IMG/VR virus record: IMGVR_UViG_3300038429_000202
Span: 1-62,260 of that record
DNA length: 62,260 nt
Source: a virus
Strand: one strand, 5' to 3'
Part shown: positions 32,738 through 47,555 of the stretch, one piece after another
Layout: every line of letters begins with the position of its first letter
Numbering within the stretch: position 1 is the first letter of the stretch
Made by a program: the position numbers and the translations under genes
Notes under the pieces: model-generated
The model's database searches: none
Told to the model about the DNA's origin: nothing
What the model saw: the letters and a program-made list of their open reading frames with translations, nothing else

Positions 32738-33166
32738 ATGTCTTCCAGGTTCGATCCGTCCGACCGTCATAGCGAGGACATGATCAAGGCAATTCACGAA
32801 GCCTCACACCGCATTGCCCACGCCATCACAGAAGGATTCCAGCTCATGGCCAACGCCGAAACCCAGGCTCTTGCCGATCTCTCCCAAGCCGTCGTCGATC
32901 TCGGGACCGCGGTCGCTGCGGAAATCAACGCCCTGCAAGCCGCGATCAACGCGCAAGGTGTCAACAACTCGCCGGCGATTGAGGCGTCCGTCGCCAACAT
33001 CCGCAGCCTGATCGGTGGTCTCAATGCGTCCGTGACCGCGGCGAGTTCGACCGCTGGTACGACCGCGCCATCGCCGACCCCGGCTACGCCCGCCACACCG
33101 GCGCCAGCCGTTGCGGCCGCAACAGCAACCCCCGCACCGGCTACCCCCACCAGCCCGGCGACCTAA
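32738..33166 (+). CDS. Coiled-coil protein with Pro/Ala/Thr tail
   Basis: 142 residues. A helical region (residues 10-95) with repeated Ala/Leu/Ile heptads (LADLSQAVVDLGTAVAAEIN) leads into a low-complexity Ala-Pro-Thr tail (residues 105-142). The layout resembles small phage proteins that trimerise through a coiled coil; a scaffold or regulatory role is possible. Its stop codon overlaps that of the opposing primase gene. Confidence 0.55.
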   Translation: MSSRFDPSDRHSEDMIKAIHEASHRIAHAITEGFQLMANAETQALADLSQAVVDLGTAVAAEINALQAAINAQGVNNSPAIEASVANIRSLIGGLNASVTAASSTAGTTAPSPTPATPATPAPAVAAATATPAPATPTSPAT

Positions 33167-35346
33167 TCGACGCCTGCGCGCTTGTAGCGCCAAGCGAAGC
33201 CATCCGCTATCCGCTTGTGGTAGCGGGTGAACTTCAGGCGCTTCAGGATGGCCCCCGCCCGCATCGCGTCAGCCCGGCTAACCATGTCGGGCTTTCGCTG
33301 TATCCACTGGTTGTCACACAGCACGTCGGTCACCGTGACGTCGTTCTTGGCCTTTTCATCGACATAGCGGGCGATCAATTCGAACCAGTCGTCGCCTTCT
33401 CGACGCCGGTCCTGCTCCTCGCCGGCCACCTTCCACAGCCGCTCCGGCAACGCCACCGAGTCCCCGCGCGCCTCGTGCACCGCAGCCTCGGCCCATAGTT
33501 GGTCGCGATCGCGACGCAATGCCTCAAGATCGATCCGGCCCGTGGTGACCGGCCAGAACCGCCGGTTGCCGGTTTGCGATTTCAGATATTCGTCGTCGTT
33601 GGTGGTGGCGAAGAACACGGTGCGGCGCGGGCGGTCGACACGGAAGCGGCCGTAGGCCGGCCTGGCGCGATCCACCTTGCGGGAAGCGAAGGCTTTGACC
33701 TGCTCGACGTCGGCCTTTTTCATGCCGGTGAGATCCGCGATCTCATACAGCCATACCCCCGTCATTGCTTCCTGCTGTTCCCGACCCGGCAGTCCCATGA
33801 CGTGCTGGTCGCTGAAATTTTCCGATCCAGCCAGGATCTCGATCGCCGTCGACTTCCCCTTGCCCTCGACGGATTCGAAAACGACGATCTGATCGAACTT
33901 GGTGCCTGGGTCGAACGCGCGCCGTACCGCAGCAATCAGCGTTACCTTGCCGATAACCCGGTTGAGCTCGGTGTCCGGGGCGCCCATGTAGATTATCAGC
34001 CAGTGGTCGAGCCGCGGCGTGCCGTCCCAGGTCAGGCTGTCCAGATAGTCGCACACCGGGTCGAACTGGTGTTCGAGACACAGTTGCGTGCAGGCGTCGC
34101 GCGTGTTTTCTGTCTTGGGATCAAAGCCATACCGCGCCCTTATGAGTTTCCGGATCATCTGGATGGCGTCGTCCGACATGTCGCCGGCCCACTGGTTGAT
34201 GACTTGGCCGCCGACCAGCATTTTCTCGTGGAACAGGTCTTTCCGGCAGGCGATGCCGAGATGAGCCACGGCAATGCCGGTGTTGGTACAGGTTGACTTG
34301 GGGCGGCCTTCGTCGTCGCGATCGGGGAAGAAGATCGGTTGCTGGCCTCCGAACGCTGCGGGGAGGGCTTGCGCGCCGGTGGCATGGCCGTTGAGATAGG
34401 GTTGCGGGTCGGGGGCTCCGCCGTTCCAGCCGGCCTGCCGCGCCAGATGGTAGATCGTGCCGACCGACACCCCAGTCCGCCTGAATGACTTCCACTTGTC
34501 TTCGCAGGCGCTTAGGGAATACTTCTCAGGGCATGTCTGAGACCACTCGTCAAAGATGGTAAAGCCGATGTCGCCGTCATTGGTCTCCCACCCGAGATCC
34601 TTGAGCGCCATGCCGACTTGGAACCAGGTCTCATACTGATTCGCAGGGATAGCCGACAGCGCCGAGATCAGCCGCGCCTGCTCGGAAGCAGACCAAACCG
34701 TCTTGAGAGCTTCGGACGCTTGGGCGTTGATATCTTTGACGGTTTGTCCGGAAAGATGCGCTGGCACATGACCGAGATGGTCAAAACCCTGCCCCCCAGT
34801 TTTACTTGCAATTTCAAAGCCTTGGCCCCACTGTCTTAAACTATCGGGTAATATTGCGAGTGGAACCTGTTTTATCCACTTATAATTTCGACCTGAGATA
34901 TGATTGCTTGGGGGCAGGATAATATACCCCCCTTCACCTCGAACGTGAACCTTGCCGCGCGCCGCGGAGCGTACAGATGGCGCTCCATCTCGCGTAGCAA
35001 AAACAAGATGGACACCTCGACCCGTCTGCGAGGCGAGTGTCTCAGGCACGCAGCCGTACTGCGCCACGAACGCCTGAAACTCGGCGAAGCCTTCGGCGCC
35101 GTCGATGTCAAAAACAGCAATTCCCCCTCCTGTCGCGAGCGCGATATTGGCCGTCGGCCAGCGCGTCCACCATTTCCGGATCTGCGCCTCGTCGTCGGTC
35201 GCTTCCTTGAACCCGGCGCGCGTCCGCGGATGTTTTCCTGGACTTCCACAGGCCACTTTGCCGCAGCTGCACGCGCCGTTGACGATCGAGTGGCAGGGGA
35301 AAATCCGCCAGCCCATTCGCGAATAAGCAAGAGCCGATTCAAGCAT
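33163..35346 (-). CDS. Primase-polymerase/helicase (AEP plus VirE/D5-like ATPase)
   Basis: 727 residues. The N-terminal bifunctional primase-polymerase domain shows IAVFDIDG (catalytic D80, D82), SQTGRGVHLVF (H113) and HVRGEGGYIILPPSNHISG. A PriCT-like linker follows (QYETWFQVGMALKDLGWE). The C-terminal superfamily 3-like ATPase of the VirE/D5 type has WDGTPRLDHWL, a Walker A VEGKGKST (about residue 495), LYEIADLTGMKKADVEQVKA (Walker B region) and FFATTNDDEYLKSQTGNRRF. It would prime and unwind at the fork for the family A polymerase. It is transcribed against the surrounding early genes. Confidence 0.9.
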   Translation of the reverse strand: MLESALAYSRMGWRIFPCHSIVNGACSCGKVACGSPGKHPRTRAGFKEATDDEAQIRKWWTRWPTANIALATGGGIAVFDIDGAEGFAEFQAFVAQYGCVPETLASQTGRGVHLVFATRDGAPSVRSAARGKVHVRGEGGYIILPPSNHISGRNYKWIKQVPLAILPDSLRQWGQGFEIASKTGGQGFDHLGHVPAHLSGQTVKDINAQASEALKTVWSASEQARLISALSAIPANQYETWFQVGMALKDLGWETNDGDIGFTIFDEWSQTCPEKYSLSACEDKWKSFRRTGVSVGTIYHLARQAGWNGGAPDPQPYLNGHATGAQALPAAFGGQQPIFFPDRDDEGRPKSTCTNTGIAVAHLGIACRKDLFHEKMLVGGQVINQWAGDMSDDAIQMIRKLIRARYGFDPKTENTRDACTQLCLEHQFDPVCDYLDSLTWDGTPRLDHWLIIYMGAPDTELNRVIGKVTLIAAVRRAFDPGTKFDQIVVFESVEGKGKSTAIEILAGSENFSDQHVMGLPGREQQEAMTGVWLYEIADLTGMKKADVEQVKAFASRKVDRARPAYGRFRVDRPRRTVFFATTNDDEYLKSQTGNRRFWPVTTGRIDLEALRRDRDQLWAEAAVHEARGDSVALPERLWKVAGEEQDRRREGDDWFELIARYVDEKAKNDVTVTDVLCDNQWIQRKPDMVSRADAMRAGAILKRLKFTRYHKRIADGFAWRYKRAGVD

Positions 35347-35433
35347 TTGCGATAACCGCTTGCCAAACCGGATTTGCTGATGTTATGGTGCGCATGCGGT
35401 TTCGATTCCCCTTGGGCCGCGTCCTCGGTATAG

Positions 35434-35463
35434 CCGGTCAGCTCTTCCAAGCTGGCCGGTTTT
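35434..35463 (+). terminator. Intrinsic terminator, rightward
   Basis: A 10-bp stem (CCGGTCAGCT with AGCTGGCCGG, one G-U pair) and a 6-base loop are followed by TTTT on the forward strand. It would stop rightward transcripts coming from the 31-33 kb genes after they have passed antisense through the primase gene, and so insulate the promoter at 35550. Confidence 0.65.
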
Positions 35464-35549
35464 CCGTTTCACGGGCCTGTCATGCTGCTCCGTATGCCCA
35501 TGGTTCGTCAAGCCCTTTTTGAAAACTCGTAATTTTTTCATTTTCCCCC

Positions 35550-35583
35550 TTTACATTTTCTAACACCGCCGTATACATTGCAT
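35550..35583 (+). promoter_or_regulatory. Early promoter with ATACA-type dyad
   Basis: TTTACA (35550-35555) and TATACA (35572-35577) are spaced by 16 bases. The -10 is part of ATACA-T-TGCAT, a one-mismatch version of the dyad seen at 31049 and 31705. The ATG at 35606 follows with AAGGGG as ribosome-binding site. Probably the main promoter of the replication operon. Confidence 0.6.
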
Positions 35584-35605
35584 CGTCAACCAAAGGGGAA
35601 ACATC

Positions 35606-35764
35606 ATGGATAAAGAAACATATCTCGGCGACGGCCTTTACGCTTCGTTTGATGGCTGGCAGGTTCGCCTGCGCGCGCCGCGTGAAGAAGGCGACCACGT
35701 AGTTTACCTGGAACCCGCAGTTGTTGAAGAGCTGCAGAAATTCATTGACGGGTTGGGCAAATGA
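35606..35764 (+). CDS. Small early protein, unknown
   Basis: 52 residues: MDKETYLGDGLYASFDGWQV, then a basic strand and an acidic C-terminal helix (VVEELQKFIDGLGK). Good AAGGGG site and ATGA overlap with the next gene. First gene of the replication operon; small beta-sheet proteins of this kind are common in phage early regions. Confidence 0.65.
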   Translation: MDKETYLGDGLYASFDGWQVRLRAPREEGDHVVYLEPAVVEELQKFIDGLGK

Positions 35765-35946
35765 TCCCCCACTCCGATCCCGAACGTAGCCAGCAGCTCG
35801 ACATGCAGAAATTGCGCATGGATCAGTGCTGGCGCCGCGGCGAGATCGGCAACGCCACTTACCTCCGCAGCCTGTTCGTCATGGGCTATTCGTCGGCCGA
35901 TGCCGTGACCGAACTCAACCTTTTGAAGATGGAGAAGCGGGCATGA
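35761..35946 (+). CDS. Small early protein, unknown
   Basis: 61 residues, wholly helical in appearance (SQQLDMQKLRMDQCWRRGEI; SSADAVTELNLLKMEKRA). 4-base overlaps on both sides. Function unknown. Confidence 0.55.
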   Translation: MIPHSDPERSQQLDMQKLRMDQCWRRGEIGNATYLRSLFVMGYSSADAVTELNLLKMEKRA

Positions 35947-36128
35947 AAGCTTTTGCGGGAGTCGAGCGGGGCGAATTCGACATGGTTAAGGTTACTGTGC
36001 TGGACATGGATATTCTTCTAAGCCACGCGCAAAAAGATATCGTGGGGGTTCCAATTTACTTTGATGAGCAGGAGCGCGTCTGGCCCAAACCAGGTTTAGG
36101 TGTTGAAGTGGTGTTTTTGCAGCCATGA
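35943..36128 (+). CDS. Small early protein, unknown
   Basis: 61 residues, beta-rich (FDMVKVTVLDMDILLSHAQK; VGVPIYFDEQERVWPKPG). 4-base overlaps on both sides. Function unknown. Confidence 0.5.
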   Translation: MKAFAGVERGEFDMVKVTVLDMDILLSHAQKDIVGVPIYFDEQERVWPKPGLGVEVVFLQP

Positions 36129-36352
36129 AACCCTCCGAACGCGCAAAAGCTTGGCGCCTCAAGCGCGGCCTCGATCTCGAGCAGCTGTCGGAGATGACGG
36201 GATATTCCGTCATAGCGATCCGCAAGCTTGAAGCCGGCATGCGCAACCGCAAAGCGCGTGAGGGTCATAGCGAGTGGGTGCTGCAACGGTATATGATGGC
36301 TTGTGCCGGCGCCGAGGCGCAATTGAAGTCGGGGAGAAAATTCGAGTGGTGA
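36125..36352 (+). CDS. XRE/Cro-like HTH regulator
   Basis: 75 residues. RAKAWRLKRGLDLEQLSEMT and GYSVIAIRKLEAGMRNRKAR form a Cro/C1-type HTH; the rest is a short helix with Lys/Arg. Likely binds one of the early operators. Overlaps the winged-helix gene by 4 bases. Confidence 0.75.
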   Translation: MKPSERAKAWRLKRGLDLEQLSEMTGYSVIAIRKLEAGMRNRKAREGHSEWVLQRYMMACAGAEAQLKSGRKFEW

Positions 36353-36648
36353 CCGCCGGAGCTTTGAAAGTTTGCGAATGTTGTGGGCATCCAATTCCAC
36401 GTTTCAACACTTTGCGGGGACTCACTCGCGGGCAGCAAAAGTTGTTCGACGCGCTCGACAAGGCCGGTCAGCGCGGACTTTCTCGACCCGCGCTGATGGA
36501 TGCCGTGTATGGCGATGATCCCAATGGCGGCCCGCTGTTCGTCAACACGCTCAACGTCCAGCGCGCCAAGATGAAGGACGTGCTGGCCGAGAACGGCCTC
36601 AAGATTGTGACCGCCCCAAACAAGCACTGGCGATTGGAGCCGCTATGA
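36349..36648 (+). CDS. Winged-helix protein, OmpR-type C-terminal domain
   Basis: 99 residues from a GTG overlapping the previous stop. CECCGHPIPRF near the start may bind zinc. LTRGQQKLFDALDKAGQRGL, SRPALMDAVYGDDPNGGPL and VNTLNVQRAKMKDVLAENGL follow the winged-helix pattern of response-regulator output domains, ending in a beta hairpin (KIVTAPNKHWRLEPL). No receiver domain. Probably a transcription factor. Confidence 0.7.
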   Translation: MTAGALKVCECCGHPIPRFNTLRGLTRGQQKLFDALDKAGQRGLSRPALMDAVYGDDPNGGPLFVNTLNVQRAKMKDVLAENGLKIVTAPNKHWRLEPL

Positions 36649-37055
36649 CCGAACTTTCCCAGGACGAACTCACCATTCTGATGATTGCCGCCACCGGCGA
36701 GCCGATGATGCCGATCGGCCGATGGGAGCAGCCGGCGAAGTCGCTGGTCGCCAAGGGTTTGCTTAAGCCGCATCCGCGCGCCGGCGATCCGACTGGTCAT
36801 TTCAACCTTCATATCACGCCGGAAGGCGCCGCTGCGGCCGAGCAAGGTGAGAATGACAGCTATCGCGCGGTGCTGAATGTCGGCGCGACGATTCAGCACG
36901 AGCAGCGCAAGGCGCGCAAGCACGCCGAGCAGATCGCGGTGCAGCTGGTCGACCTCGCCGAGGCTTCGAGCAAGGTCACCGGCGATACCAAGGTCGACGC
37001 GCTTCGCCGTTGGTCCGAGATTATTTTAACCCGAGCCCTGGAGATGACGCGATGA
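36645..37055 (+). CDS. Winged-helix-like protein with helical tail
   Basis: 136 residues. The first 65 look like a small winged helix (SQDELTILMIAATGEPMMPI; AKSLVAKGLLKPHPRAGDPT; FNLHITPEGAAAAEQG), and the remainder is an amphipathic helix (EQRKARKHAEQIAVQLVDLA). Coupled by 4 bases to the preceding regulator. Likely DNA-binding; exact family not recognised. Confidence 0.55.
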   Translation: MTELSQDELTILMIAATGEPMMPIGRWEQPAKSLVAKGLLKPHPRAGDPTGHFNLHITPEGAAAAEQGENDSYRAVLNVGATIQHEQRKARKHAEQIAVQLVDLAEASSKVTGDTKVDALRRWSEIILTRALEMTR

Positions 37056-37261
37056 GAAGTTTTTCGTTTTTCGTTATAGGATTCGCCAGCTGCGCGATGC
37101 TCGACCACTTGATGGTCGTTTCGCACGCAGCCGACCTCGCTGTTCCAAAGCCGAAACCGCCCGAGCGATGCCTGATCACCGGCGAGAACCCGGACCCCGG
37201 CCAGACCCTGCACGTCGACAAGCGCTGCAAGTCCGGATTGCGGTGGGTTTATCAAAAATGA
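37052..37261 (+). CDS. Small secreted protein, unknown
   Basis: 69 residues. MRSFSFFVIGFASCAMLDHL may be a signal or anchor. The mature part is basic with two Cys (RCLITGENPDPGQT; HVDKRCKSGLRWVYQK). Overlaps on both sides are 4 bases. One of three early small proteins with export signals (the others start at 45242 and 45526). Confidence 0.55.
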   Translation: MRSFSFFVIGFASCAMLDHLMVVSHAADLAVPKPKPPERCLITGENPDPGQTLHVDKRCKSGLRWVYQK

Positions 37262-37581
37262 TTAATCTTGCCCGCGCACGGAAAGAATTCGGCCCGAAGT
37301 GGCATTATGAAAATGCCATCGGCCGACGCGTCAAGATGCCGGGCTTGACCGATTTGCAAATCGCCGCTCTTGCCTGTGTTCGAGACGATATCGTTACACG
37401 CTACGAACGGCGAGTCGGTTACGAGCGATACATTGCTTACCGAGCGGAAGGTTTCGACGTGACGTGTCAAATGCACGCGCTAAAAAAGCGCCGCCTGATT
37501 TATTTCCGATCAGACGGTTCCAAGTTGTTTCGCCTCTCATCATTCGCCATGGATGTTCTTGCCAGATACCCGGAATACTGA
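37258..37581 (+). CDS. Early protein, unknown
   Basis: 107 residues. Helical, with LTDLQIAALACVRDDIVTRY and a winged-helix-like end (MHALKKRRLIYFRSDGSKLF). Possible DNA-binding role. More AT-rich than the flanking genes. 1-base overlap with the next gene. Confidence 0.5.
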   Translation: MINLARARKEFGPKWHYENAIGRRVKMPGLTDLQIAALACVRDDIVTRYERRVGYERYIAYRAEGFDVTCQMHALKKRRLIYFRSDGSKLFRLSSFAMDVLARYPEY

Positions 37582-37904
37582 TGAGCATCGATGCCCAATT
37601 CTTCGCGGATCATCCGACGCGCCGGGCTCATATCCGCATGCCCGGCGGCCCGGCGATCCAGCGCGACCAGCAGCGCGCCGTCCGGTATCTGAGTGAAAAC
37701 GAACTGGAATTTAGATCGCTCGGCACGCACGATAGAGGCCGACGAAGGATTATCGCTTATCGGCTCCCCGCCAACCACGAGACGCATCCGAATCACATCA
37801 TGAAGATCCCATTTTTGTTGTTCGCAGATGAAACCGTGGAAGATACCGACGAGGTGCTGCTGCCGATCGTGGATGGCATTATGAAACAGGCGCGCAGGCG
37901 ATGA
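37581..37904 (+). CDS. Early protein, unknown
   Basis: 107 residues. A basic N-terminal part (RRAHIRMPGGPAIQRDQQRA) and an acidic C-terminal part (FADETVEDTDEVLLPIVDGI). 4-base overlap with the polymerase gene suggests expression in step with replication. No family was recognised. Confidence 0.5.
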   Translation: MSIDAQFFADHPTRRAHIRMPGGPAIQRDQQRAVRYLSENELEFRSLGTHDRGRRRIIAYRLPANHETHPNHIMKIPFLLFADETVEDTDEVLLPIVDGIMKQARRR

Positions 37905-39760
37905 CTCCAGCAGTTTTTGACCTCGAATGTTTTTACGACCCGAAAAATACTCGCGGGGATCCATCACCCTATACGCTAAGCGCCATGACAACAGAAAGTT
38001 TTGTCAGAGATGCGCGGTGGGACATTCACGGAGCTTCTATTAAGTGGTCGGCTTCCACATCTGCTACTTGGTACGATCCACGCGAACTGGCCTACGTTTT
38101 AAAACAACAGGATTGGTCCGAAGTATTTTTAATATCGCACCATAGCAATTTCGATCATTTGGCGCTGTCCCACCACTACGGCGTACATCCCAAACTATCC
38201 GGCTGTACGATGAGCATGGCAAGGCTGATGCTTGGTAATCACATCGGAGTTAGCCTTGACTCGGTGCGCAGTCAGTTTGGTTTTCCGGCCAAAACCACGC
38301 CGTATGGGCTGATGGCTGGGCGCTATTGGCGTGACCTAGATCAATCTACGCGCGATCTGGTTGCGGCCGGTGCCAACGATGAAGTCGAAAGTATCTGGCG
38401 CCTGTTCGGCATCCTAATGCAGCGCGGCTTCCCGGCCGAAGAGCTCGACGTCGTCGACTCAACCATCAAGATGTTCACCTGCCCGGAACTCAAGGGCGAT
38501 GGCGCCATCTTCGCCAAGGTGTGGCAGGATGAAGCGAGCCGAAAGGCTGCCGCCCTCGAACGCCTCGGCGTCAGCGCCAAGGAACTCGGCTCTGACGAAC
38601 GATTCGCCGAGCTGCTGCGCGCCCGCGGCGTCGAACCGGACACCAAGGCCACCGACAAGGGCAACGTCAAGTTCGCCTTTGCTAAGACCGACCCATTCAT
38701 GGAGGAGTTGCAGCAGGATGAAGACGAGGAGATTAGAGCTCTTGCGGAGGCTCGCCTGGGAACGAAGTCTACGCTCTTGCAGACCCGCGCGGAGACCCTG
38801 GGCTGGATGGCAAGTCGGGGATCTCTCTGCGTTTACCTCCGATACGCTGGGGCTCTTACGAGCCGTTGGTCGGGGGGAGACGACACAAATTTTCAAAACT
38901 GGACCAATGGATCGGAAATCAATTCAGCAGTTGTCGCACCTGATGGATGGCTGATCGCCGAACCCGACGCTTCGCAGATCGAGTGCCGCCTGCTCAACTT
39001 CTGCGCCGGCCAGTGGGACAAGGTCGAGGAGTTCAGGTCCGGCGCCGACCCTTACATCGGTGTTGCCAGCAAGTTCTACGGATTTCCCGTCAACAAGAAA
39101 GAGCATCCCGACGAACGCCAGCTTGGCAAGATCGTGGAACTGCAGGCCGGTTACGGTTCCGGCGGCAACAAGATACGCAGTACCGTGCGCGTGAAGTCGA
39201 GCGGCAAGATACTGCTGACTCCGGTCGAGGGCGTGCAGGCGCGCGATGCCTACCGCGACACTCACCCCGCCGTGACTCAATACTGGAAGGAAGCCGAGCG
39301 CGCGATCGAGCGGATGGCGCAATGGCAGTCGTGGGACTGGGGTCCGTTCCGGGTACGGTGCGATCAGGCAGCGGGCAAGCGCCGGATCGTGTTGCCCAAC
39401 GGCATCGAGATAATCTATGATACGCTCAACTTTTTTTCGGATAACGAGACCGGCGACCGCTATTGGCGCTTGAAGACTCGTAAAGGATGGGTCAAGATAT
39501 ACGGCTCCAAGCTGGTCGAGAATATGATCCAGGCCCTGGCGCGTGTTGTCGTATCGCAAGCCATGCTGCGGCTCAAGAAACTCGGTTACCGATGCAAGAA
39601 CACCAAGCACGACTCACTGTGGCTGCTGGTGCCGAAGGACGGACGCCTCGAGGAGCACAAGCGGGTGATCATCGAGGAGATGAGCCGGACGCCGGTATGG
39701 CTGCCCGGTGTGCCGCTGGCGGCGGAATTCAAGGGTATCGGGGAGCGCATGACATGGTGA
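37901..39760 (+). CDS. Family A DNA polymerase with 3'-5' exonuclease
   Basis: 619 residues. Exonuclease: FDLECFY (D7, E9), HHSNFDHLAL and AGANDEVESIW. Polymerase: motif A PDASQIECR (D356), motif B RQLGKIVELQAGYGSG (R406, K410, Y418), motif C KHDSLW (H570, D571). The residue four after the motif B Lys, equivalent to E. coli Pol I F762, is Leu-414; this position is Phe, Tyr or Leu in phages, and Leu has been linked with temperate or slower-replicating viruses. The first ~400 bases are more AT-rich than the rest. Acts with the primase-helicase on the opposite strand. Confidence 0.95.
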   Translation: MTPAVFDLECFYDPKNTRGDPSPYTLSAMTTESFVRDARWDIHGASIKWSASTSATWYDPRELAYVLKQQDWSEVFLISHHSNFDHLALSHHYGVHPKLSGCTMSMARLMLGNHIGVSLDSVRSQFGFPAKTTPYGLMAGRYWRDLDQSTRDLVAAGANDEVESIWRLFGILMQRGFPAEELDVVDSTIKMFTCPELKGDGAIFAKVWQDEASRKAAALERLGVSAKELGSDERFAELLRARGVEPDTKATDKGNVKFAFAKTDPFMEELQQDEDEEIRALAEARLGTKSTLLQTRAETLGWMASRGSLCVYLRYAGALTSRWSGGDDTNFQNWTNGSEINSAVVAPDGWLIAEPDASQIECRLLNFCAGQWDKVEEFRSGADPYIGVASKFYGFPVNKKEHPDERQLGKIVELQAGYGSGGNKIRSTVRVKSSGKILLTPVEGVQARDAYRDTHPAVTQYWKEAERAIERMAQWQSWDWGPFRVRCDQAAGKRRIVLPNGIEIIYDTLNFFSDNETGDRYWRLKTRKGWVKIYGSKLVENMIQALARVVVSQAMLRLKKLGYRCKNTKHDSLWLLVPKDGRLEEHKRVIIEEMSRTPVWLPGVPLAAEFKGIGERMTW

Positions 39761-39849
39761 TCGTCCGCCACTCCTTCGCCAACCCGATGTGGTGGTCATA
39801 TCAGTGGGCGCTGGTCTGGTACCACGAGCGAAATGGAGTTCGGTACTGA
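39754..39849 (+). CDS. 31-residue peptide, unknown
   Basis: MVIVRHSFANPMWWSYQWAL leads a Trp/Tyr-rich peptide ending in YHERNGVRY. The start overlaps the polymerase stop and the stop overlaps the next ATG, supporting translation. Function unknown. Confidence 0.4.
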   Translation: MVIVRHSFANPMWWSYQWALVWYHERNGVRY

Positions 39850-40010
39850 TGTCATGGACAGTCGTAAACGATACGCTCGAACGTATTCATGTTCGCGCTA
39901 TTATCGACCTTAAAACGGAAAATTACGAAATCCGTCAGTTGATCGCCGCGCTCGAGAAGCGCTTAACCAAGGAGAATACCGATGAACGAACACCCGCTTC
40001 CGATGTTTGA
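39849..40010 (+). CDS. Small helical protein, unknown
   Basis: 53 residues, with RIHVRAIIDLKTENYEIRQL and a charged helix (IAALEKRLTKENTDERTP). Overlaps the next gene by 29 bases. Function unknown. Confidence 0.45.
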   Translation: MSWTVVNDTLERIHVRAIIDLKTENYEIRQLIAALEKRLTKENTDERTPASDV

Positions 40011-40269
40011 CGAACCCCCGGTTCAAGCCGAACCGGCACCGCCGAAAAAGCCGAGGCCGAAGCCGACCCGCAAACGGCGGACTCGTAAGGTCGTGAAGGC
40101 TGCTCCTATTAAACGCAGGAAACGCCGTGCTATTAAGGCTAAGCCCGTCGAACAGCATCATGGCGGGCGCTTTACTCGTGAGCAATATCGACTAATTGGC
40201 GATCTTATGCTTTTGACGCAGGAGGAGCGCGAGGTCGTTTTTGAAATAGCATCGGAATTGACCAAATGA
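39982..40269 (+). CDS. Basic, partly disordered protein
   Basis: 95 residues. Pro-rich N-terminus, a very basic middle (PRPKPTRKRRTRKVV and KRRKRRAIKAK) and a C-terminal helix (LTQEEREVVFEIASELTK). Composition suggests nucleic-acid binding, perhaps a small histone-like protein; this is inference. Confidence 0.55.
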   Translation: MNEHPLPMFDEPPVQAEPAPPKKPRPKPTRKRRTRKVVKAAPIKRRKRRAIKAKPVEQHHGGRFTREQYRLIGDLMLLTQEEREVVFEIASELTK

Positions 40270-40406
40270 CCTTCGGTGCCATGGCCGCGCTGATGATCTT
40301 CCTGCACATGGCGCCGAACATCGCTGGCGCGAGCTGGTCGGTCTACAAGCATCACGACATTACGACCGATCATCCTCACCCCAAGGTTCCGAAGTACCGC
40401 CGATGA
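40266..40406 (+). CDS. Small membrane-associated peptide, unknown
   Basis: 46 residues. MTFGAMAALMIFLHMAPNIA is hydrophobic; the rest is His/Pro/Lys-rich. ATGA-coupled on both sides. Confidence 0.4.
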   Translation: MTFGAMAALMIFLHMAPNIAGASWSVYKHHDITTDHPHPKVPKYRR

Positions 40407-41140
40407 CCGACACTTTCCCCGACATTCCGGCGTACCTGCGCCGAACCAAGGACAACAAGATGCCGGAATTTGCCCCGAAGCCATTAACGCTGACTTTTAC
40501 GATTCTCAACACTTACGACATTTGCCCGCACCAGATGTACCGGCGCTACATCAAGAAGGATCTGCCGTTCGTTGAAACTCCGGAGATGAAGTGGGGCAAC
40601 GACACGCATACGGCGATGGAGCATCGCATGGGCGGCAAGCCGCTGCCCGTCAACATGCAGCATTGGGAGCCGATCGCAGCTGCCATTGCCGAGCGCAAAC
40701 CGCGCACCGAACAACAACTAGCAATAGACGCATCGGGCAAGCCGACCGACTATTGGAACAAGGTCACGCCGCCGTTCTTTCGCGGCAAGAATGATATCAC
40801 GCTGCTCAACGGCACCAAGGCGCTGTTGTTTGACTGGAAAACTGGCGGCAGCAAGTACGAGAATTCGTTCGAACTTGAAACCAATGCGATGCTGGTTCAC
40901 GCACACAATCCGCATCTGACCGAGATTAGCGGTTCGTTTGTATGGCTGAAGGAAAACCGCGTAGGGCAGGCGCACACGCTGAGCGACACGCGTTCAACCT
41001 TTGCAACGGTGTGTAACAAGGCCGAGGAAATCAGGGATAGGCAAGCGACCAACGATTGGGAGAAACGCAAGAATCCACTCTGCGGTTGGTGCAATTGCTT
41101 CGATTGCGAATTTAACACGAATCCGAAGAAACCGACATGA
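40403..41140 (+). CDS. RecB/Cas4-like PD-(D/E)XK nuclease
   Basis: 245 residues. ICPHQMYRRYIKKDLPFVE at the N-terminus, LLFDWKTGGSKYENSFELET (the D-x-K catalytic strand and following acidic helix) and a C-terminal cluster CGWCNCFDCEF are the signature of RecB-type nucleases with a Cas4-like Cys cluster that may hold Fe-S or zinc. Such phage enzymes process DNA ends in recombination-dependent replication. Downstream nuclease and helicase genes fit that role. Confidence 0.8.
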   Translation: MTDTFPDIPAYLRRTKDNKMPEFAPKPLTLTFTILNTYDICPHQMYRRYIKKDLPFVETPEMKWGNDTHTAMEHRMGGKPLPVNMQHWEPIAAAIAERKPRTEQQLAIDASGKPTDYWNKVTPPFFRGKNDITLLNGTKALLFDWKTGGSKYENSFELETNAMLVHAHNPHLTEISGSFVWLKENRVGQAHTLSDTRSTFATVCNKAEEIRDRQATNDWEKRKNPLCGWCNCFDCEFNTNPKKPT

Positions 41141-41286
41141 CGATCAAACGCCGAGAGTCGTTGCGCGCCGAGATGAAGCAGTCTCGCGAGCCAAACTACA
41201 AGGATGGCAAATATTTGCCGGGCTTCGTGCAGAAATGCCGCTGCGGCTTCAACTGGGACGATTGGGTGGGAAATGAGTATTCTTGA
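41137..41286 (+). CDS. Small protein, unknown
   Basis: 49 residues. Basic N-terminus (IKRRESLRAEMKQSREPNYK) and a C-R-C-G motif near the end (QKCRCGFNWDDWVG). 4-base overlap with the nuclease gene and 14 bases with the next. Possible half zinc site. Confidence 0.5.
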   Translation: MTIKRRESLRAEMKQSREPNYKDGKYLPGFVQKCRCGFNWDDWVGNEYS

Positions 41287-41428
41287 ACACATTTGGAATA
41301 AAAAATGCGACGCCTGTGACAAACGGAAACCTGACGTAAAAGGCAGAGACGATTGGGCACCCCCGCGACCAATGTGCGATGAATGCTATAATCTTTGGTG
41401 GGAAGCTAACAAAGACGAGCTTGGGTAA
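41273..41428 (+). CDS. Small two-CxxC zinc protein
   Basis: 51 residues. CDACDKRKPDVKGRDDWAPP followed by CDECYNLWWEANK gives four Cys in two CxxC pairs spaced as in small zinc ribbons. Lies one base before the VRR-NUC gene. Could be a partner of the nuclease. Confidence 0.55.
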   Translation: MSILEHIWNKKCDACDKRKPDVKGRDDWAPPRPMCDECYNLWWEANKDELG

Positions 41429-41429
41429 A

Positions 41430-41741
41430 ATGAAAACCCCCGAATGGCACGAAAAACAGGAAATAAAAGCGTTCCTTGATACACTCGGCCCCGACCGTTG
41501 TTGGTATTTTATGCCGCTGATGGCAGGCTACGGAAAATCCGGCGTGCCTGATATCATGGGCAGTCTCTGTGGCGCGGCTTTTGGAATCGAGGTTAAGCGG
41601 CCGGGCAAGGCGCCGACGGCGATCCAGGCGCGTCGCATGCGCGAGATCGCGCGAACCAACGGACTGGCTTGGGCTGGTACTGCCGAAGATGTAATTCCAT
41701 TTATTAAAAGCTGGTTGGAAGTTCGCGGGATCGTAGTGTGA
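41430..41741 (+). CDS. VRR-NUC nuclease
   Basis: 103 residues from the ATG at 41430. GYGKSGVPDIMGS (motif I Asp), FGIEVKRPGKAP (E-x-K) and TAIQARRMREIARTNGLAWA (Gln after the core) are the VRR-NUC signature, a PD-(D/E)XK fold that in phages and FAN1 cuts branched DNA. 4-base overlap with the SNF2-like helicase: the pair is a recurrent phage combination. Confidence 0.9.
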   Translation: MKTPEWHEKQEIKAFLDTLGPDRCWYFMPLMAGYGKSGVPDIMGSLCGAAFGIEVKRPGKAPTAIQARRMREIARTNGLAWAGTAEDVIPFIKSWLEVRGIVV

Positions 41742-43315
41742 CCTTCTGGCTCCACGGATCCCACGTCATCTATCCGGGCCAGCCCGGCGTGCTCGCGCAG
41801 TACATCCCTGACTTGAAGCCGATCAACGGCTCGTACTTCGCCGTGCCCAAGACGCTGACCAATCTGCAGACACTACGCTGGTACAATTTCGAAGTGCCGG
41901 AAGTCATCAGCGAAGCCAATTACGACTTCCCGATCCAGCCCGGCTTCAAGCCCTTGCCTCACCAGAAGGTGATGGCCAACTTCTCGGTGCTGCATCGTCG
42001 GATGTTCAATCTGTCCGACATGGGCACCATGAAGACGATCTCGACTTTGTGGGCGGCCGACTACCTGATGCAACAACACCCGAAGGGAGAATTCCGTGCC
42101 ATCGTCGTCGCACCGCTTTCCACTCTCGATCGGGTCTGGGCGTCAGCCATCTTCAAGAATTTCCTCGGACGTCGAACGTATGAGATCCTCCACGGCACCC
42201 CTTCTCAGCGTGCTGCTGCACTGGATCGAGAAGCTGATTTTTACATCATCAATTTCGACGGTGTCGGGACTGGAGCTCACACTCGTCGGAGATTTGAAAT
42301 TGACGGTTTTAGTAAAACCCTCATGGAACGATCCGACATCCAGCTTTGCATCATTGATGAAGCGTCAGCTTACAAAGACTCAACTACTTTGCGTCATCGG
42401 ATCGCACGGGACGTGCTTGGTAAGCGGAGTTACCTTTGGCTACTCACCGGTACCCCCACTCCCAACGCTCCCACCGATGCCTACGGACTAGCCAAGATGG
42501 TGAACAACGCATGGGGCAAGTCGAAGACCGGCTTCAAGCTCGACACGATGTATCAGCCGTTTCCAAATTCGTTCAAGTGGCTGCCAAAAAAGGACGGCTA
42601 CGAGAAAGCGGCCAAGCTGTTGTCCCCGTCGATCCGTTACGAGTTGAAGGATATCTGGAACGGTCCCGAATGCGTAACGCAGCAGCGCTCGGTGGAACTC
42701 ACCTTGGAGCAGAAAAAGATGATGGCGGAACTCAAGCGCGACCTGCAGGTCACGCTGAAGTCAGGCGCCGAGATCAGCTCCGTCAACGAAGCCGCTGCAC
42801 GGCAGAAATTCATCCAAATCTCGCTCGGAGCCGTCTACGACTCCGGGCACAAAGCCCACGCCGTCGACGCCAAGCCGCGCATCCACGCCCTGAACGAAAC
42901 CCTCGAGGAGGCGCCCGGCAAGTTCCTCGTCTTTGCGCCCTTCACTTCGGTGGTCAATCTGCTGGCGAAGGAAACAAAACACCGCACCGTCGAAGTGGTC
43001 AACGGCGATGTCAGCCAGAAAGAACGCTCGAAAATATTCGCTGCGTTCCAGGAAGGCGACCTGCAGGGCATCATCGCCGATCCCGGCACCATGGCGCACG
43101 GACTTGACCTATGGATGGCGCGCACCGTGATCTGGTACGGCACTACCGACAAGGCCGAGCTGTACGCGCAGGCCAATCGCCGCGCGCACCGGCCCGGGCA
43201 GAAGTACCCGGTCAACGTGGTGCAACTGGTATCGAACCCGCTGGAGATCGAGATTTTCCGGCGGCTTGAAAATAATTTGTCACTGCAAGGATCGCTGTTG
43301 ACAATGATAAAGTAG
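41738..43315 (+). CDS. SNF2-like superfamily 2 helicase
   Basis: 525 residues. KPLPHQKVMANFSVLHRRM (Q-like motif), FNLSDMGTMKTIS as Walker A (residues 91-102), LCIIDEASAYKDSTT (motif II, DEAS), LWLLTGTPTPN (motif III), VNGDVSQKERSKIFAAFQEG and ELYAQANRRAHRPGQK (motif VI). The Walker A reads DMGTMKT rather than DMGLGKT, with Met at the second Gly position. Probably translocates on dsDNA to restart forks or remodel branched DNA with the VRR-NUC nuclease. Confidence 0.9.
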   Translation: MTFWLHGSHVIYPGQPGVLAQYIPDLKPINGSYFAVPKTLTNLQTLRWYNFEVPEVISEANYDFPIQPGFKPLPHQKVMANFSVLHRRMFNLSDMGTMKTISTLWAADYLMQQHPKGEFRAIVVAPLSTLDRVWASAIFKNFLGRRTYEILHGTPSQRAAALDREADFYIINFDGVGTGAHTRRRFEIDGFSKTLMERSDIQLCIIDEASAYKDSTTLRHRIARDVLGKRSYLWLLTGTPTPNAPTDAYGLAKMVNNAWGKSKTGFKLDTMYQPFPNSFKWLPKKDGYEKAAKLLSPSIRYELKDIWNGPECVTQQRSVELTLEQKKMMAELKRDLQVTLKSGAEISSVNEAAARQKFIQISLGAVYDSGHKAHAVDAKPRIHALNETLEEAPGKFLVFAPFTSVVNLLAKETKHRTVEVVNGDVSQKERSKIFAAFQEGDLQGIIADPGTMAHGLDLWMARTVIWYGTTDKAELYAQANRRAHRPGQKYPVNVVQLVSNPLEIEIFRRLENNLSLQGSLLTMIK

Positions 43316-46499: not shown

Positions 46500-46708
46500 A
46501 GCTCTGCAAATGCGGTCGCCCTGCAACTCACTTCATCATGCGGCTTACACTCGACGGTGAGCAGAACGGCAAGCAACTTGCGTGCGATGCCTTCCCTGAC
46601 GCACAATGGTCTAGGCGGCCCGTTGGTCGCATGTCAGCGCTCGTACACGGCCTCGGCAATTGCCAACTCGGTTACTTCGCACGACAGGAAATGACGCATG
46701 ACTCCTGA
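46496..46708 (+). CDS. Small Cys-containing protein, unknown
   Basis: 70 residues: MKLCKCGRPATHFIMRLTLD then LACDAFPDAQWSRRPVGRMS. The C-x-C-G start and two later Cys may bind metal. Overlaps the methyltransferase gene by 11 bases. Confidence 0.5.
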   Translation: MKLCKCGRPATHFIMRLTLDGEQNGKQLACDAFPDAQWSRRPVGRMSALVHGLGNCQLGYFARQEMTHDS

Positions 46709-47555
46709 GATAGTCGATTTGTTTAGCGGCGCGGCGGGTGGTTGGTCCTTGGGGATGCATCGCGCCGGATACCGCACGATCGCGGCCTGTGAAATCGACC
46801 CGTGGCGCCGAGCCACCTATCAACGGAACAACCCCGAGGTGCGACTTTATGACGACGTTAGAACTGTCACGGCAAAACAGCTTGTTGCCGATCTTGGACG
46901 CCTCCCTGACGCCATCGTTGGAAGCCCTCCCTGCCAAGACGCCAGCGCCGCCAATAGCCAAGGCAAAGGCGTCGAAGGCGACCAAACGAAGCTCGTCTTT
47001 GAGGCGATCCGTATCGTCAGCGAATGCAGACCTCGTTGGTGCGCTTTTGAAAACAGTCCTTTCCTCCGAACTCGCGGCTATGACCGGATTGCGGATGGAC
47101 TGGAAGAAATCGGTTACGCCTGCTGGCCGTTCGTGGTGGCAGCTAGTGATCTTGGAGCCCCGCACGGGCGCAAACGGGTCTGGATCATTGCTTCCGACGT
47201 CGGCCAAACAGAGCCAGTCGGGTGGCCTGCGCCTGGAGGGCGCCAGCGGTGGGCGCAAGAAGCTACGGCAGATGATGGGGTCGCCGCGCGCGAACAAGTG
47301 GGGCGAGCCGGACTGTCATGGGCGAACGATTGGGATCAATGGCAGGGAGGCATTGCACGCCACTTACGAGTGGACGATGGGCTATCCCCCACGACATCTC
47401 GCGAATGCATCAGCGCATACGGTGACGCCATCCTCCCGCAAATCAGCGAAGCCGCCGGCAGAGCCATCCTCGCCGTCGAAGCAGCCCGACGATTCATCGC
47501 TGATCTGACGCCTCGGTTACCCCAGGTCACAAGCGCGGAGAGCGAGAATGGATGA
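46698..47555 (+). CDS. C5-cytosine DNA methyltransferase
   Basis: 285 residues. Motif I VDLFSGAAGGWSLG, motif IV GSPPCQDASA (catalytic C79), motif VI FENSP (E118), motif VIII GAPHGRKRVWIIA and motif X AYGDAILPQISEAAGRAI are all present in order. The target-recognition region between VIII and X is short (about 65 residues). Phage enzymes of this kind protect DNA from host restriction. No cognate endonuclease was seen nearby. A second gene is nested inside it in another frame, so much of the sequence codes twice. Confidence 0.95.
   Translation: MTPEIVDLFSGAAGGWSLGMHRAGYRTIAACEIDPWRRATYQRNNPEVRLYDDVRTVTAKQLVADLGRLPDAIVGSPPCQDASAANSQGKGVEGDQTKLVFEAIRIVSECRPRWCAFENSPFLRTRGYDRIADGLEEIGYACWPFVVAASDLGAPHGRKRVWIIASDVGQTEPVGWPAPGGRQRWAQEATADDGVAAREQVGRAGLSWANDWDQWQGGIARHLRVDDGLSPTTSRECISAYGDAILPQISEAAGRAILAVEAARRFIADLTPRLPQVTSAESENG
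46849..47508 (+). CDS. Overprinted companion protein nested in the methyltransferase gene
   Basis: 219 residues in the +1 frame from an ATG at 46849 with GAGGTG (46836-46841) seven bases upstream. It reads like the proteins found beside phage methyltransferases: PAKTPAPP, then ALLKTVLSSELAAMTGLRMD, TPAGRSWWQLV, PRTGANGSGSLLPTSA and ATYEWTMGYP, corresponding to the familiar pattern of LKTS, WK-S-TP-GR-WW, TG-GSGLLPTPTA and EWxMGFP. The overlap covers methyltransferase motifs IV to X. Function unknown; possibly specificity or a modification partner. The family was recognised from memory, not by search. Confidence 0.7.
   Translation: MTTLELSRQNSLLPILDASLTPSLEALPAKTPAPPIAKAKASKATKRSSSLRRSVSSANADLVGALLKTVLSSELAAMTGLRMDWKKSVTPAGRSWWQLVILEPRTGANGSGSLLPTSAKQSQSGGLRLEGASGGRKKLRQMMGSPRANKWGEPDCHGRTIGINGREALHATYEWTMGYPPRHLANASAHTVTPSSRKSAKPPAEPSSPSKQPDDSSLI

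Follow-up and report, generated by a model that had tools for sequence, protein, structure and literature searches.

In the C5-cytosine DNA methyltransferase M.EcoHK31I, the gene of the β polypeptide lies inside the α gene in a different reading frame. M.AquI (CYCGRG) and M.EcoHK31I (YGGCCR) have been published as two-polypeptide C5-methyltransferases: in M.EcoHK31I, motifs I–VIII and X are located in the larger subunit, to which the predicted recognition domain was also assigned, and motif IX in the smaller one; in M.AquI, motifs IX and X reside in the second protein (PMC3404938). A phage methylase gene that contains a further frame has been documented for ShiLan, where an out-of-frame HNH was explained as a homing endonuclease insertion (PMC11855218).

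The locus investigated here is part of a stretch of viral DNA of 62,260 nucleotides (IMG/VR record IMGVR_UViG_3300038429_000202, complete stretch; hereafter the window). C5-methyltransferase motifs are divided between two conserved frames, α (frame 0) and a nested +1 frame, β; start-site signals are present at the β start, and the constraint switches between the frames along the gene (see Table 1 for coordinates). The locus very probably encodes a C5-cytosine DNA methyltransferase that is naturally split into two polypeptides, with the coding sequence of the second subunit overprinted on that of the first. Replication genes are found beside it (window positions 33163-43315), i.e. a primase/helicase (33163-35346, minus strand) and a family A DNA polymerase, together with a PD-(D/E)XK nuclease and an SNF2-type helicase.

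The α frame (285 residues) matched phrog_363 (2.6e-55) and PF00145 (1.3e-34), the latter match being confined to residues 5-172. Motifs I, IV (PCQ), VI and VIII of PF00145-type C5-cytosine DNA methyltransferases are present, and the AlphaFold model agreed in revealing the C5-methyltransferase catalytic fold (best structure match 3g7u, E 6e-14, approximately 170-200 of the 285 residues). The initial annotation had credited this frame with all catalytic motifs through motif X; this holds for motifs I, IV, VI, VIII and X but not for motif IX, as neither Pfam nor the AlphaFold model nor codon-position divergence revealed a recognisable motif IX or recognition domain in frame 0. The model had pLDDT values below 50 at residues 174-223, i.e. 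between motifs VIII and X. The recognition domain and motif IX, which in a single-chain enzyme share the chain of motifs VIII and X, appear to be located in the +1 frame.

Table 1. Features of the split methyltransferase locus (positions refer to the window).
Feature	Position	Strand	Basis
α, C5-cytosine methyltransferase frame (motifs I-VIII and X)	46698..47555	+	PF00145; phrog_363; AlphaFold
Motif I (DLFSGAAGGWSLG), AdoMet site, α frame	46716..46754	+	sequence; invariant columns
Motif IV (GSPPCQD), catalytic cysteine C79, α frame	46920..46940	+	sequence; invariant C79, Q80, D81
Motif VI (ENS), α frame	47049..47057	+	sequence; invariant E118
Motif VIII (GRKRVW), α frame	47166..47183	+	sequence; invariant R158, R160, W162
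Motif X (AYGDAILPQISEAAGRAI), α frame	47415..47468	+	invariant columns; wobble at α third positions
β (219 aa), gene nested in +1; putative recognition region and motif-IX-like segment	46849..47508	+	openness in relatives; phrog_1008; alignment (n=61)
Shine-Dalgarno-like GAGGTG, 7 nt 5' of the β ATG	46836..46841	+	sequence
+1-frame open extension upstream of the β ATG, from GTG 46738	46738..46848	+	open frame
β N-terminal helix and hairpin (VGALLKTVLSSEL...TPAGRSWWQLV), over α motifs VI-VIII	47017..47157	+	AlphaFold; α 4-fold divergence
β putative target-recognition region, degenerate LPTP modules (LLPTSA, MMGSPRA)	47158..47352	+	modular alignment; β third-position wobble
β motif-IX-like segment (LHATYEWTMGYPPRHLANA)	47353..47409	+	alignment; gene B relatives: collinear with motif IX, before X

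The overprinted ORF reported in the initial annotation, with its frame, quoted peptides, ATG and GAGGTG, is present in the sequence. In the window alone, the +1 frame stayed open with P=0.047 in synonymous-codon shuffles, and long overlapping ORFs are common there; since the length alone was thus weak evidence, relatives were collected. Among 68 non-redundant full-length copies gathered via the α frame only, the +1 frame was open in 65 (1.3 expected) with 13 stops against 256 expected, the definition of the region end by the +1 stop being a mild bias too small for the observed gap; the +2 frame of the same copies, taken as control, was near its null (839 stops observed, 907 expected). A second set, which was obtained via divergent α proteins of mycobacteriophage, Porphyromonas and Synechococcus phages and covered motifs VI–X without the bias of a stop-defined end, had the +1 frame open in 66 of 75 copies (9.6 expected; 10 stops versus 158). 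Eleven copies of this set that failed the motif pattern were read, and all had variant IX segments, still in +1. Six testable single-chain C5-methyltransferases agreed with their null for +1 openness. Plasmid methyltransferases of E. coli and Klebsiella, considered as relatives of M.EcoHK31I, turned out to be single-chain enzymes that keep motif IX in frame and have numerous stops in +1; they were used as controls. In a Porphyromonas phage and five further records (42-49% GC), the +1 stretch of 177-262 codons stayed open in 0 to 104 of 5000 synonymous resamples; for the copies with 42-48% GC, the figure was 0 to 44 of 5000. Stop codons in relatives with an intact methyltransferase had been named as a possible refutation: such stops interrupt β in L027 and L081, both of which retain α. 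Judged by these sequence comparisons, the overprinted +1 frame is genuinely coding and conserved.

The arrangement had been regarded as a rare case of gene compression involving a family normally encoded by a separate gene; neither view persisted. A β-led viral search yielded 80 loci with an overlapping α in all of them; in 78 the frame was +1, and the other two contained frame breaks. In addition, tblastn with β matched 296 phage and 31 plasmid records, of which a sample was read. The overlap is common in phages (mycobacteriophages, cyanophages, Paenibacillus and Porphyromonas phages) and plasmids (Leptospira, Acinetobacter, Bacteroides) and is usually annotated as one gene only. In actinophage-like contigs the layout is staggered: in 70 of 71 pairs, gene B occupies the +1 frame with respect to gene A, with an overlap of 206-377 nt, and its single frame runs through the recognition region, a WMMG segment and motif X, the last of which gene A lacks. 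A Candidatus Megaera plasmid (L355:711-1736) has the LPTP modules in +1 and the motif-IX-like LNPDWVEWLMGYP in the α frame with motif X; either the copy is frameshifted or the layout is of a third type. In two further records (L075:2492-3262, L066:2489-3568), indels or a deletion fuse the α frame directly to the β frame in one ORF, by assembly error or natural fusion. The single annotated frame may also be β: in Synechococcus phage Sc-Yong805-2 (L188:1514-2443) a hypothetical CDS corresponds to the β frame while the methyltransferase frame is unannotated, and gp71 of Mycobacterium phage DosHalletts (L008:2146-2691, hypothetical) is the β frame, with the α frame (2001-2711) unannotated.

The supposed resemblance of the +1 frame to a known phage family was borne out: all 61 β sequences matched phrog_1008 (best E 2.7e-21; window β 7e-6), labelled 'DNA methyltransferase', a label that names no partner or overlap. 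A viral search with the single window β sequence found no relatives, so profiles were needed; with β, no match was obtained in the PDB sequence search and no credible family match in Pfam. Modelled alone, β gave a poor AlphaFold result (pLDDT 63), and the PDB fold search with this isolated model gave no match at E<0.001; the helix-hairpin had pLDDT values of 93-95 across most of the element (residues 61-100). In the alignment of the 61 sequences, the LPTP-type modules vary in number, and the relatives share a motif-IX-like segment of the LNPTWVEWLMGFPxGWT type. Two loci with near-identical α (L231:65-892 and L233:1801-2490) differ in β by one extra TP-type module, the recognition region having apparently gained a module. 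The window β is divergent: RH replaces the nearly invariant GW of the IX segment and LPTS/GSP replace LPTP; as near-invariant positions are altered, this copy may be weakened. The β profile matched actinophage gene B (96.9% probability, E 1.6e-10), and the WMMG–X stretch of gene B aligned with motifs IX–X of single-chain methyltransferases (P 0.0027); from this chain of homologies, the recognition region and motif IX can plausibly be assigned to β. The motif set of a C5-methyltransferase is divided over two frames, with motif IX, which was identified from its position and a modest profile match, as the weakest link of the chain.

The synonymous-rate comparison that had been proposed as a check revealed suppression from the β start onwards. 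In 12-codon bins, the 4-fold synonymous divergence of α was 0.59-0.65 before the β ATG and 0.38 just after it, with a minimum of 0.056 over LVGSLL..SEL of β; in 25 disjoint pairs it decreased from 0.474 before the β start to 0.222 after it (p 8e-30). Codon-position divergence was computed in the same pairs. In motifs II–VIII, the free position was the third of α (0.20 versus 0.05 and 0.09), in the interval VIII–IX the third of β (0.315 versus 0.13 and 0.13, p 1e-96) and in motif X again the third of α (0.25 versus 0.04 and 0.07); in the IX segment, the third of β was highest (0.137 versus 0.068 and 0.115, p 5e-5). According to this region-by-region wobble, the main coding frame switches along the gene: the β tail over motif X behaves as a shadow, as does α between VIII and IX. 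The window and its nearest relative, L009, had the same codon-position order in every region, at few sites. Both frames had been expected to constrain the target-recognition region; since the wobble there is at β third positions, most of the constraint between VIII and IX is carried by β.

At the β start, YDD has the tyrosine codon TAT, which gives the +1 ATG, in 45 of 65 copies compared with 60 of 215 other tyrosines; a +1 ATG is found inside YDDV in 59 of 65 copies (44 expected), and SD-like 4-mers precede the β start in 28 of 65 relatives (15.3 expected). These enrichments favour internal initiation, probably at ATG 46849, over frameshifting. Translation from the upstream GTG is less likely, as the 4-fold divergence of α is not reduced across the extension. 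A programmed +1 frameshift that fuses motifs I–VIII of α to the recognition region of β would account for the nearly constant +1 position of β and gene B, and in the staggered layout it would produce the full motif order I–X; in the nested layout, however, the product would lose motif X of frame 0, and the constraint reaches back to the β ATG, far ahead of the positions at which a shift would be useful. In view of the start-site signals, too, such a frameshift is unlikely.

Initially, the two frames had been taken for two separate families. This was abandoned because β holds parts that are absent from α, namely the IX-like segment and the putative recognition region, so that the two products appear to be subunits of one enzyme. 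An independent function of β (as nuclease, inhibitor or other partner) beside a complete frame-0 methyltransferase, to which the lack of credible Pfam and PDB fold matches would correspond, is highly unlikely: the VIII–X part of frame 0 is modelled with low confidence and lacks α-frame constraint, the gene B homologues run in frame into motif X, and the number of LPTP modules varies as would be expected of recognition regions. That the +1 frame is a mere shadow, open and conserved-looking only through its overlap with a conserved GC-rich gene, would suit the window's shuffle result, its abundant long overlapping ORFs and the β tail over motif X, but is extremely improbable given the openness in both sets of relatives and the rarely open resamples of the low-GC copies, and is refuted for the family by the synonymous-site and codon-position tests, with suppression beginning at the β start and α rather than β acting as shadow between VIII and IX.

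In the split enzyme, α would provide AdoMet binding, the catalytic cysteine, motifs I–VIII and the C-terminal motif X helix, and β would contribute the helix-hairpin, the putative target-recognition region with its LPTP modules and the motif-IX-like segment. We infer that β is translated and that both chains assemble as a heterodimer into one active, sequence-specific enzyme; it would methylate the phage DNA, most plausibly for protection against host restriction. The evidence is evenly balanced as to whether the loci constitute a split C5-methyltransferase class that is both ancient and widespread, with the recognition subunit nested or staggered in +1 within the catalytic subunit; on the same footing, swappable LPTP modules might let specificity evolve where the catalytic gene varies freely. 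Such a class would have escaped description since annotation usually retains a single frame. A common phage gene annotated as 'DNA cytosine methyltransferase' is apparently half an enzyme, the probable target-choosing part of which sits, often unannotated, in the other frame of the same DNA. If this is true, the annotated gene cloned alone would yield an inactive protein, and specificity predictions made from it would fail. The locus would be a dense natural case of overlapping frames that divide the functions of one enzyme under alternating constraint, and a useful test case for methods of overlapping-gene detection.

Among the openly accessible papers searched, none described overprinted phage methyltransferases of this sort. 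The genes gp56/gp57 of Paenibacillus phage Bloom are likewise nested in +1 and both annotated as DNA cytosine methyltransferase; the passages retrieved from the publication on P. larvae phage genomes (PMC6070908) mention neither their overlap nor a subunit role. The ShiLan methylase gene likewise contains another frame, but there a homing endonuclease is inserted, whereas the second frame of the window spans conserved motifs and is apparently part of the enzyme. The M.AquI split resembles that of the actinophage-like gene A/gene B pairs; the window locus differs from it in that motif X is located in the first protein (frame 0) and the second protein is fully nested. With M.EcoHK31I, the locus shares the motif division, I–VIII and X in α and IX in β, and, compared with the published description, it would work in a similar manner. 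Strict membership is not claimed, as the recognition domain was assigned to the larger subunit in M.EcoHK31I, whereas in the window locus the VIII–IX region is constrained in the β frame; the locus is placed in the wider group of naturally split C5-methyltransferases.
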